DNA from: an uncultured Oscillospiraceae bacterium
GTDB taxonomy: Bacteria; Bacillota; Clostridia; Oscillospirales; Acutalibacteraceae
Direction of reading: 5' to 3'
Assembly (NCBI GenBank): GCA_900539845.1
Contig: UQDP01000003.1
Span: forward strand, 1-64,000
Length of the DNA stretch: 64,000 nucleotides
Shown here one piece after another: positions 59,030 through 64,000 of this stretch. The notes beneath the pieces were generated by a model, which saw only the letters and a list, made by a program, of their open reading frames with translations, was not told the origin of the DNA and searched no databases. Position numbers and translations under genes: made by a program. Numbering within the stretch: position 1 is the first letter of the stretch; each line of letters begins with the position of its first letter.

Positions 59030-60106
59030 ATGGACAACGAAAAGGTTTATATATGCCTTGAAAACGGCAGAGTTTTTGAGGGAAAGCGTTTCGGCGCGGG
59101 CGGAGATGTAACCGGAGAACTTGTTTTTACAACAGGCATGTGCGGTTACATCGAAACTCTTACGGACCCAAGCTATTACGGTCAGATCGTTTTGCAGACC
59201 TTTCCGCTTATCGGAAACTACGGGTATATTTCTGGCGATGCCGAAAGCCCAAGATCATACGTTACGGCATATATCGTACGCGAGAAATGTGATGAACCGT
59301 CTAATTTCAGGTGTGAGAAAACGCTTGACGAGTACCTGAAAGAAAACAACATTCCGGGTGTGTATGACGTTGACACGAGAGAGATAACAAAAATAATCCG
59401 TGAGAGCGGCGTTATGAACGCGATGATCTGTTCCGACCCGAGAAGCTTTGACGAAGAAAAGGTAAAGGCATACAAGGTCAAAAACGCAGTTGAAGCTGTC
59501 TCCTGCGAAAGGCCGGTTCCCCTTGCCGCCGATAAGCCGCTTTACAATGTTGTTCTGCTCGATTACGGAAAGAAAGAAAACATTGCGCGCGAGCTTGTGA
59601 AACGAGGCTGCAATGTGGCGGTCATGCCGAGCGGCACAAAGGCCGAGGACGTCTTAAAGCTTGACCCGGACGGCATTATGCTCTCAAACGGACCGGGAGA
59701 TCCTGCCGAAAACACACAGTGCATTGAGGAACTGAAAAAAATGATCGGCAAAAAACCGATATTCGGCATCTGCCTCGGGCATCAGCTTTTGGCGCTCGCA
59801 ATGGGTGCGGAAACAGAGAAGTTGAAATACGGTCACAGAGGAGTTAATCAGCCCGTTAAAAATCTTGAAACAGGCAGAACTTATATCTCTTCGCAGAATC
59901 ACGGCTATGCGGTTGTTAACGAATCGGTTGAAAACTGCGGCGGAAAGATAAGCTATGTAAACGCCAACGACGGTACAAATGAGGGTATTGATTACCCCGA
60001 AAAAAACGCGTTTTCGGTGCAGTTTCATCCTGAGGCCTGCAGCGGACCGCACGACACGAGATTTCTGTTTGACAGATTCATAAAAATGATGGGAGGTAAA
60101 GGATAA
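59030..60106 (+). CDS. carA: Carbamoyl phosphate synthase small chain (arginine operon copy)
   Basis: 358 residues, slightly shorter than the pyr copy at 23338. Glutaminase subunit: an N-terminal CPSase small domain (VYICLENGRVFEGKRFGAGG start), then a class I amidotransferase with catalytic Cys in FGICLGHQLLALA near residue 242 and His-Glu in SVQFHPEACSGPHD near 330. TAATG overlap with carB and position after argF make it the arginine-specific form. Two copies in one window are expected where arginine and pyrimidine synthesis are regulated apart. Confidence 0.96.
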   Translation: MDNEKVYICLENGRVFEGKRFGAGGDVTGELVFTTGMCGYIETLTDPSYYGQIVLQTFPLIGNYGYISGDAESPRSYVTAYIVREKCDEPSNFRCEKTLDEYLKENNIPGVYDVDTREITKIIRESGVMNAMICSDPRSFDEEKVKAYKVKNAVEAVSCERPVPLAADKPLYNVVLLDYGKKENIARELVKRGCNVAVMPSGTKAEDVLKLDPDGIMLSNGPGDPAENTQCIEELKKMIGKKPIFGICLGHQLLALAMGAETEKLKYGHRGVNQPVKNLETGRTYISSQNHGYAVVNESVENCGGKISYVNANDGTNEGIDYPEKNAFSVQFHPEACSGPHDTRFLFDRFIKMMGGKG

Positions 60107-63100: not shown

Positions 63101-64000
63101 ACTATATCGTTTACACCGGCAAGAGCGACAAAAAGAGCATTGCCGACTATATAAGGTTATTCAACCGCGCAAACCAGCTCGGAATTGCCACTCTCACCTC
63201 GCTGGACACGGCAAACGCGCTTGCCGATATTATCGCCAGCAGGTACAATCAGAAGAATACCGAGCTTGTGGATATTAACAATATGCGCAAAGAAAAGAGC
63301 CTGCTGAGATTCAGCAAGATGCAGGGCACGAGCGACGACTATATTTTCTTTAACAACATGAAAAACACCATCACTTGCCCCGAAAGCTTTGCGATCGAGT
63401 TCACGGACAGGCATAAAAGCATAGGCGGCGACGGAATCGTGCTGATAGAAAGCTCCGATATTGCCGACGCAAAGATGCGCATATTCAACCGTGACGGCTC
63501 CGAGGGAGAAATGGCGGGCAACTCCATTCGCTGCGTTGGAAAATACCTTTATGACAACGGCATTGTAAGTAAAGAAAACATCGCCGTTGAAACCGCCAGC
63601 GGCATAAGAAAGCTGGAGCTGTTCACAAGAAACGGCAAGGTCTCCTCCGTTACCGTTGATATGGGCAGGGCTTACCTCAGACCTTCCGAGATACCGGCTG
63701 TCTTTGACGGCGAAAACATAATCGCACAGAATGCCCAAATAGGAGGAAAAGAATACAGTGTTACCTGCGTTTCGGTCGGAAACCCGCACTGCGTTGTGTT
63801 TGTTGACAATGTGGATAAGGTAGAGATCGAAAAAATCGGTCCGCAGTTTGAAAACGCGGATCTCTTCCCGGAAAGGATAAATACAGAGTTCGTGCGTGTG
63901 GTAAACAGCAGAACGCTTAAAATGCGCGTGTGGGAACGCGGAAACGGCGAAACTCTTGCCTGCGGCACAGGCGCCTGCGCGGCTGCCGTGGCTGCGGTGC
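60106..64000 (+). CDS. carB: CarB-DapF fusion: carbamoyl phosphate synthase large chain plus diaminopimelate epimerase (runs off window)
   Basis: Open from the ATG at 60106 (GGAGGTAAAGGATA upstream, TAATG overlap with carA) to the window end, 1298 codons with no stop; I translated each line. Residues 1-1045 are a complete CarB: first ATP-grasp half from VIGSGPIVIGQAAEFDYAGAQ, second from VLGSGPIRIGQGIEFDYSS (about residue 545), and MGS domain about 930-1045. After a short linker (RYNQKNTELVDINNMRKEKS) residues from about 1063 are DapF: KMQGTSDDYIFFNN, GGDGIVL, FNRDGSEGE, GNPHCVVFVDNV and ERGNGETLACGTGACA. Cys1286 is the second catalytic Cys; Ala1137 replaces the first. The end is missing. The pyr CarB copy has no such extension. 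Confidence 0.93.
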   Translation, partial: MPLNKDIKKVLVIGSGPIVIGQAAEFDYAGAQACRVLKDEGIEVVLVNSNPATIMTDSALADHIYLEPLTEETVKRIIEKEKPDSILGGLGGQTGLTISMQLAKDGYLEKMGVRLLGTDAEAIDKAEDRQLFRDTMVKINQPVVPSDIANDVETAEKIAREIGYPVIIRPAFTLGGAGGGVAYNEKELRDVAKHGLMLSPITQVLVEKYIAGWKEIEFEVMRDSAGNVIAVCSMENFDPVGVHTGDSIVIAPAVTLGDKEYQMLRTASLDIITELGIEGGCNCQFALNPESFEYSVIEVNPRVSRSSALASKATGYPIAKVTTKIALGYTLDEIRNDITGKTCACFEPTLDYVVVKVPKWPFDKFINASRKLGTQMKATGEVMSIAPSFEMAIMKAVRGAEIGLDTLNNKAIENTDIHEALKNQDDLRLFSVFRALKNGVSVDEIHRVTMIDEWFLYKLKNLADYEKEIKNTPVSRELYIKGKKYGYTDAAIERISGSPLAFHKNAVYKMVDTCGAEFEAETPYFYSAYDEHCESRELERGEKERIIVLGSGPIRIGQGIEFDYSSVHCVWTLKELGYEVILINNNPETVSTDFDTGDRLYFEPLTPEDVMNVIKVEKPVGVVVAFGGQTAIKLTKFLDDNGIKILGTSAEGIDVAEDRDKFDRLLEKFGIYRPKGTSVTSLEGALEAGNRLGYPVLLRPSYVIGGQNMTIAYTDDDVEQYMSIILAQGIENPVLVDKYMMGTELEVDCISDGENVLIPGIMEHIERAGVHSGDSIAVYPPYNLNDRMLRKICDVSEKLALSLGTKGLVNIQYLIYQNELYVIEVNPRASRTIPYISKVTGVPMVELATKIMVGATLNELGYGTGLYKTPPYYAVKVPVFSFEKLNNVNSQLGPEMKSTGEVLGVGKNLNEALFKGLISAGFRVESRKASRHGVLITVTKKDRFEIVNLAKKLDDLGIKIWATPQTGKAIASLGIEVETVNKLSEDNSIMELVESGKLDYIVYTGKSDKKSIADYIRLFNRANQLGIATLTSLDTANALADIIASRYNQKNTELVDINNMRKEKSLLRFSKMQGTSDDYIFFNNMKNTITCPESFAIEFTDRHKSIGGDGIVLIESSDIADAKMRIFNRDGSEGEMAGNSIRCVGKYLYDNGIVSKENIAVETASGIRKLELFTRNGKVSSVTVDMGRAYLRPSEIPAVFDGENIIAQNAQIGGKEYSVTCVSVGNPHCVVFVDNVDKVEIEKIGPQFENADLFPERINTEFVRVVNSRTLKMRVWERGNGETLACGTGACAAAVAAV

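Follow-up and report, generated by a model that had tools for sequence, protein, structure and literature searches.

The arginine operon in a 64,000-nucleotide stretch of DNA from an uncultured Oscillospiraceae bacterium (GenBank contig UQDP01000003.1, positions 1 to 64,000; the whole stretch is called the window below) contains a gene that encodes the large subunit of carbamoyl-phosphate synthase (CarB) and diaminopimelate epimerase (DapF) in a single frame. We observed that the two enzymes are fused, that the DapF domain of the window protein and of most of its relatives has lost the first of the two cysteines that DapF catalysis uses, that the diaminopimelate (DAP) pocket is retained at all but two positions, that the domain is under purifying selection, and that it co-occurs with another route to meso-DAP. 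We consider it somewhat probable that the epimerase domain on CarB has been turned into a ligand-binding regulatory domain, which would probably sense DAP.

CarB and DapF are joined in one family of proteins

The frame comprises 1298 codons and is free of stops up to the window end, including the junction codons (Table 1). Judged against P0001, a complete and near-identical protein (1343 residues, 99% over the searched region) that has both domains, about 45 codons of the gene are missing at the 3' end of the window. The NCBIfam model TIGR01369 (CPSaseII_lrg) matched residues 4 to 1041 at full length with 1421 bits against a cut-off of 1027, and TIGR00652 matched residues 1068 to 1298 (profile positions 2 to 226 of 270) with 247.7 bits against a cut-off of 114.65; Pfam gave the same two-domain result, the DapF part being PF01678. 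The in-frame fusion proposed in the initial annotation of this DNA is therefore genuine, with one open frame, both curated matches above cut-off and a DapF domain that is cut by the window end, whereas the linker, put at 15 to 20 residues, really spans about 26 between the family matches and holds a conserved motif. The fusion gene is the last visible one of the operon argC-argJ-argB-argD-argF-carA-carB/dapF, and the small-subunit gene carA (59030-60106; TIGR01368, 451 bits) adjoins it directly upstream. An ATG is present within the frame at 63283; an internal start was not inferred, as a promoter scan of 59900-64000 gave 8 sites against 4.0 (SD 2.4) in shuffled sequences, and 4 terminators against 4.5.

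A protein search with the C-terminal part returned 7056 proteins with E values up to 1e-3 among 7992 scored candidates, a figure that we do not take as a count of fusions because ordinary CarBs must be among them. All of the best 120, which were listed, carry CPSase domains followed by PF01678, and so do all 120 proteins listed when a more distant fusion served as the query of another search, most of them 1311 to 1354 residues long. One of the latter, P0224, named for Herbinix hemicellulosilytica, has the UniRef label "Multifunctional fusion protein." In a genome scan for relatives, from which the best 80 loci of 91 were taken, the genome titles were Eubacterium, Oscillospiraceae, Ruminococcaceae, Clostridia and similar; one titled Bacteroides sp. 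(L025) may be misbinned. The closest relative of the window among the loci is that of Clostridium sp. CAG:678 (L043; 92.6% at the protein and 80.6% at the DNA level). A class sample of 109 genomes yielded a DapF match within an open frame longer than 1200 residues in 18, and two further frames (G379, G328) were shortened but carried the linker motif.

The collection amounts to 129 fused loci, two of which (L185 and L186) have identical DapF parts. Of the 111 fused loci up to L156, 110 show CarB in the frame of DapF, and the remaining one (L072) begins at a contig edge; for the 18 class-sample loci the sequence covers the DapF end only, and the fusion rests on frame length (or a shortened frame) together with the linker motif in 17 of the 18. 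In one locus (L066) the DapF part is spread over two frames in the record, through sequencing error or decay. Since a near-identical complete protein exists and all listed relatives carry both domains, the fusion is neither chance nor an assembly error.

Most fused DapF domains lack the first catalytic cysteine

When the window DapF was aligned to solved DapFs, alanine was found at the first catalytic cysteine (Cys1) and cysteine at the second, a loss that had no part in the initial annotation. Across the 129 fused loci, the Cys1 position is occupied by Ala (89), Cys (26), Gly (12), Phe (1) or Ser (1), so that 103 are Cys-less; in L207, Cys1 was read as Cys and appears as Ala in the larger alignments through misalignment. 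The sole Ser, in L196 (genome G338), might keep trace activity. The motif at this position is AGN in 120 of 120 proteins listed from the first search and CGN in 120 of 120 from the second, and the fused family thus has two large branches. In genomes with a fusion, the standalone DapFs that were read (that of G254 is not among them) have Cys at Cys1 in 54 of 54 cases, and the two closest relatives tested (G018 and G019) have a standalone DapF with the cysteine intact. A replacement base within the AGNxIRC motif was considered and rejected: no single residue follows GN (S, C, A, G and N all occur), and standalone DapFs have the later Cys as well.

With the first of two catalytic cysteines lost, the Cys-less domain is, judging from its sequence, very unlikely to epimerize. 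The window copy does not have the cysteine pair of a DapF and hence is not a sequence-complete bifunctional CarB-DapF either; Cys1 is present in 26 of the 129 fused loci, and these Cys-retaining fusions are presumably bifunctional enzymes.

The substrate pocket of the Cys-less domain is retained

According to the part of PMC12039745 available to us, the proximal amine of the ligand contacts Asn13 and the Cys75 sulfur, the proximal carboxylate contacts Gly76, Asn77, Gly225 and Thr226, and the distal end contacts Asn66, Asn164, Asn197, Glu215 and Arg216. We transferred these contacts to Haemophilus influenzae numbering and compared 12 pocket columns in the 103 Cys-less fused domains. Change is confined to Cys1 and Asn11, the latter position holding Asp in 66, Asn in 36 and Ser in one. 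Of the other ten positions, nine are unchanged in 103 of 103 domains and the Thr is kept in 101 (Ser in two); the second catalytic cysteine (Cys217 equivalent) is present in all 103. By the contacts described in that source, both changed residues touch the proximal amine, and the distal-end and carboxylate contacts remain. Ten of the 12 DAP-binding columns expected of a DapF are kept in the Cys-less copies. Outside the pocket, 51 columns are conserved in active DapFs; in 95 Cys-less copies, 38 of them hold at 95% and 13 drift.

The initial annotation had offered two roles for the fusion. A sensor fits the window protein better, with Cys1 gone and the pocket kept; a fixed stoichiometry of two working enzymes is unsupported in this organism because the DapF domain is without one of its paired catalytic cysteines, and that reading fits the Cys-retaining sister fusions instead.

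The Cys-less domain is under purifying selection

The Cys-less fused DapF domain is under purifying selection. Among close pairs, chosen by eye from close relatives and with several synonymous rates (dS) near saturation, the ratio of nonsynonymous to synonymous rates (dN/dS) was 0.027 to 0.120 in 14 of 15 computable pairs (16 tried), and it was below that of the standalone copy in six of seven comparable genome pairs (eight tried). Across 44 genomes that have a fused and a standalone DapF (946 genome pairs), the fused domain was the less divergent of the two in 96.6% of the pairs, with a mean protein distance of 0.363 against 0.472, although the standalone distances may be inflated because the standalone copies may not all be orthologues.

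Cys-less fusions occur with another route to meso-DAP

In 36 of the first 40 fusion genomes searched, a single fused DapF is accompanied by a single standalone copy. Nine genomes had a Cys-less fusion and no standalone DapF that we could find (four of these first 40 and five of 20 with single-match fusions); the DAP dehydrogenase Ddh was above cut-off in nine of nine, that of G266 scoring lower (302 bits). The test for a meso-DAP route was repeated on 18 new class-sample genomes, giving a total of 71 (45 Cys-less, 26 Cys-retaining), a set that leaves aside, on the Ddh side, 18 genomes with a Cys-less fusion and a standalone DapF. Either a standalone DapF or Ddh was found in 44 of the 45 Cys-less genomes, a count unaffected by G037, whose standalone DapF (L099, 264 residues) fell below the length filter so that the genome was entered as being without it. 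In the 26 Cys-retaining genomes we found neither in 10, Ddh only in 12, and both in 4; the Cys-retaining fusion is thus the only DapF found in 22 of 26. This pattern of co-occurrence fits the loss of an activity that had been made redundant.

History and gene order of the fusions

A tree of the 114 DapF domains left from 176 rows after an 80% identity cut, built by a quick method and with many weak forks, gave the fused state as one change and the Cys state, over all rows, as two; within the fused group, the Cys-retaining fusions branch off first. It looks as if the fusion arose once. On a second tree of 71 fused rows, the Cys state takes five changes on the best tree, of which well-supported branches compel no more than two for the Cys group; parsimony does not distinguish a loss of Cys from its gain. 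Support for the main Cys-less clade, with 40 members, is 100 in the Shimodaira-Hasegawa-like approximate likelihood ratio test (SH-aLRT).

Several loci show carB and dapF in other arrangements. A standalone dapF starts 11 bases past the stop of an unfused carB in L172, with GGAGG in front, and in L154 (2995-6783, minus strand; genome G206) the carB stop and about 18 bases lie between a second carB and the standalone dapF that shares its frame. Both are plausible pre-fusion states, though the arginine operon of G206 contains a Cys-less fusion as well. The arrangement in L137 (2995-8110, minus strand; genome G238), where a Cys-retaining fusion is followed about 130 bases on by a standalone dapF and both have both catalytic cysteines, is a possible intermediate state. 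Elsewhere (L157, L158, L165, L166) a standalone dapF lies about 1.4 kb from an unfused carA-carB pair, which makes the genes neighbors in some genomes where the only DapF found was a standalone one. Genome G040 has, alongside its Cys-less fusion, a very divergent standalone DapF (L116; branch length >4), perhaps acquired from elsewhere.

Arginine operons tend to be the setting of the Cys-less fusions, with argF upstream in 23 of the 29 Cys-less loci examined (of 95); four of the other six end early upstream. No argF was seen in the flanks of 16 Cys-retaining loci, which are short; in seven Cys-retaining loci with longer flanks, argF was found in none and argJ in one. In three loci (L134, L138, L147) argF stands directly before the fusion with no carA between. 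The initial annotation had taken the fusion to be specific to the arginine copy of CarB. Within the window this holds, as the pyrimidine CarB is indeed unfused (1061 residues), although its gene lies on the minus strand; across the family it does not, as no second CarB turned up in 12 of the 16 Cys-retaining and 12 of the 30 Cys-less fusion genomes.

The linker, the MGS domain and structure models

In 236 of 240 fused proteins the two halves are connected by the motif NTE[LI][VI]DINx[ML]R or a sequence near it, and the remaining four have near variants. The pattern occurs in 105 of 108 fused locus frames, and linker and motif are absent from the two unfused CarBs compared. A model of the MGS domain, linker and DapF part (predicted local distance difference test score, pLDDT, 86.9) has two confident domains and a linker at about 43-56; its DapF part matches solved DapFs, with a template modeling (TM) score of 0.89 to 2otn, normalized by target. 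When the model was enlarged to take in the second CarB half (pLDDT 81.7), the linker scored about 77-82, a hint from modeling that it may dock on CarB.

In the MGS domain, Tyr and Gly occupy the positions of Escherichia coli N1015 and T1017, which we take to be uridine monophosphate (UMP) contacts, in 120 of 120 Cys-less proteins and in the window copy. Loss of the UMP site is a weak sign of changed regulation, as the unfused CarB of L172 is also without the site and the pattern used for it left 35 of 120 Cys-retaining proteins unmatched.

Features of the window

The coordinates are collected in Table 1. In addition, an S-adenosylmethionine (SAM, S-box) riboswitch lies at 30488-30584 on the minus strand (Rfam, 75.6 bits).

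Table 1. Positions in the window of the fusion gene, its parts and the related operons.
Feature	Position	Strand	Basis
CarB-DapF fusion gene, open at the window 3' end	60106..63999	+	frame, Pfam, NCBIfam, comparison with P0001
Carbamoyl-phosphate synthase large subunit (residues 1-1041)	60106..63228	+	TIGR01369
MGS allosteric domain of CarB (residues 945-1031); Tyr/Gly at E. coli N1015/T1017 positions	62938..63198	+	PF02142; alignment to E. coli carbamoyl-phosphate synthase
Linker (residues 1042-1067)	63229..63306	+	gap between TIGR01369 and TIGR00652 matches
Conserved linker motif NTELVDINNMR (residues 1051-1061)	63256..63288	+	pattern count in fused proteins
DapF-like domain (residues 1068-1298, incomplete)	63307..63999	+	TIGR00652, PF01678, PDB matches
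Asp codon at a position that is Asn in the standalone DapFs read (Asn11 in H. influenzae, Asn13 in Anabaena)	63334..63336	+	
Ala codon at first catalytic cysteine (H. influenzae Cys73, Anabaena Cys75)	63514..63516	+	alignment to solved DapFs
Second catalytic cysteine (Cys217 equivalent), retained	63961..63963	+	alignment
Upstream arginine operon argC, argJ, argB, argD, argF, carA	53783..60106	+	frames; NCBIfam names
Second, unfused CarB (1061 residues) in pyrimidine operon	20151..23336	-	comparison copy
Pyrimidine operon pyrC-carA-carB-pyrK-pyrD-pyrF-pyrE-pyrB	16168-25687	-	best NCBIfam matches

Discussion

We hypothesize that a dapF gene adjoining carB fused to it once and that the product acted as a bifunctional enzyme, after which lineages with a standalone DapF or a DAP dehydrogenase would have lost Cys1, probably on several occasions. 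The Cys-less domain would still bind a DAP-type amino acid without turnover and close on it, DAP being the first candidate. Closure of the two DapF lobes may be passed via the conserved linker to the neighboring MGS end of CarB, and carbamoyl-phosphate synthesis for arginine would be tuned to the pool of lysine and cell-wall precursors. We infer the ligand, the output and the direction of the effect. The proposal in its full form, a DAP-gated carbamoyl-phosphate synthase in which a pseudo-epimerase, fused while active and later (probably several times) deprived of one cysteine, senses the precursor of cell wall and lysine and sets the flow of carbamoyl phosphate into arginine across a large group of mostly uncultured gut Clostridia, is tentative, and we regard it as possible but rather doubtful. 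That a non-catalytic DapF can regulate a partner is shown by E. coli, where, in the portion of PMC4227774 that was accessible, DapF(C73A,C217A) has no epimerase activity (no LL-DAP conversion) yet binds and stimulates RppH.

Several points weigh against the hypothesis of a regulatory domain. One Cys-less genome, G379, has lysA with no standalone DapF or Ddh found, although its assembly may be incomplete because its CarB matches only in pieces on two contigs. The Fisher p value for the co-occurrence (9.6e-5) is raw and ignores kinship, and when Cys loss was set against the other meso-DAP routes with kinship taken into account, the two to five independent pairs left the test without power. As the genomes are mostly metagenome-assembled genomes (MAGs) without reported completeness, an apparent absence of a standalone DapF or of Ddh may be a gap, in either direction. 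Nor does redundancy force the loss of Cys1, because four Cys-retaining genomes also have both a standalone DapF and Ddh. Conservation of the pocket could be partly due to constraints of the fold. Of 14 Cys-less pairs that could be compared, 12 have a higher dN/dS in the fused DapF than in the CarB part of the gene, and in one outlying pair (L057/L061) the dN/dS of the fused DapF is 0.28 against 0.12 for the standalone copies, at a fused dS of only 0.066. The main loose end is the unbroken second catalytic cysteine, which is never lost though a pure binding domain needs none, and which leaves room for a one-cysteine activity.

The fused DapF could instead be a structural or assembly domain that stabilizes CarB, sets its oligomeric state or tethers partners, for which the fold would be needed and a ligand would not. 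DapF dimerizes, and the linker motif, present in 236 of 240 proteins, lies in a region whose model confidence goes from about 43-56 to 77-82 once the second CarB half is modeled; the catalytically dead E. coli DapF, as far as the accessible text of PMC4227774 goes, works by protein-protein contact. A structural role leaves unexplained why ten pocket positions are nearly invariant while 13 of 51 other columns drift, and why the residue always lost in Cys-less copies is the catalytic one, and we consider it unlikely. We give even less credence to the idea that the Cys-less domain is a different enzyme, with the second cysteine as a single base acting on another substrate (for example in elimination or one-sided proton exchange). 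The Cys217 equivalent in 103 of 103 Cys-less domains and the change of Asn11 to Asp in 66 of them are in keeping with such an activity, and fold matches of the DapF family include 3-hydroxyproline dehydratases and PhzF, which have altered catalytic residues. The new substrate would, however, have to resemble DAP, because the DAP-specific contacts at the distal end are all kept, and the mixture of residues in place of Cys1 (Ala, Gly, Ser, Phe) suggests that a residue was lost, not that a new catalytic one arose.

There is a slim chance that the domain is still a DAP epimerase, with another residue in the place of Cys1, in a bifunctional enzyme coupling arginine and lysine synthesis. Its TIGR00652 score is far over the cut-off, and a fused DapF can evidently serve, because 10 of 26 Cys-retaining genomes show neither a standalone DapF nor Ddh. 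Against this, the motif contains no conserved substitute base, the residue after GN being variable; 44 of 45 Cys-less genomes have another meso-DAP route; and the double Cys-to-Ala E. coli DapF is reported, in the portion of PMC4227774 cited above, not to convert LL-DAP. An assembly or reading-frame artefact can practically be dismissed: the window stops before the frame does and by itself cannot show where it ends, but the same architecture in all 240 proteins listed and CarB in the same frame in 110 of 111 loci refute this for the family.

The Cys-less fused domain shares its fold, the distal-end and carboxylate pocket and the second cysteine with known DapFs (TIGR00652/PF01678; solved structures 9mro from Anabaena, 3ejx from Arabidopsis and 1bwz from H. 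influenzae), and differs in that Cys1 is replaced, Asn11 is often Asp and the domain is attached to CarB. The Cys-retaining fusions (e.g., P0224) have the same domain order, linker motif and single origin on the tree; unlike the Cys-less ones, they have both cysteines and no argF in the flanks examined, and in 22 of 26 genomes no other DapF was found. E. coli carbamoyl-phosphate synthetase (1bxr) has a CarB that likewise ends in the MGS domain but is followed by no further domain, and the Cys-less fused proteins have Tyr/Gly at its N1015/T1017. From the accessible part of PMC4227774, the E. coli DapF-RppH pair resembles our proposal in that the DapF fold regulates without catalysis, while there DapF is a separate protein, its wild type is a working epimerase and the partner is an RNA pyrophosphohydrolase. 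The Trypanosoma brucei prozyme, as presented in the section of PMC5201418 that was available, is a dead copy kept for regulation, as we propose for the fused DapF, which differs in its origin from another pathway and in its covalent attachment.

In the open-access full-text literature, which defines the scope of our search to the exclusion of subscription papers, we recognized no description of a CarB-DapF fusion or a pseudo-DapF, and the fusion is not described in the available parts of PMC9026213, PMC12039745, PMC8225329, PMC4227774, PMC9695335 and PMC11528492. The fusion itself is visible in databases; as far as we have seen, the degenerate active site and the constraint on it are apparently undescribed.

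These results carry a warning for annotation, as the Cys-less fused proteins score as DapF though they very probably do not epimerize, so that a dead epimerase may be counted as present when the lysine and peptidoglycan pathways of gut MAGs are reconstructed. If the link to DAP is true, the fusion would be a direct wire from peptidoglycan and lysine supply to arginine synthesis, of a kind undescribed in the open-access literature searched. Regulatory domains of metabolic enzymes are usually old and their origin obscure. In this one bacterial group the likely states coexist, namely adjacent genes, an active fusion, an active fusion with a second DapF and a dead fusion, and because they occur side by side, the path from a neighboring gene through a fused enzyme to a ligand-binding relic can be tested with real proteins.

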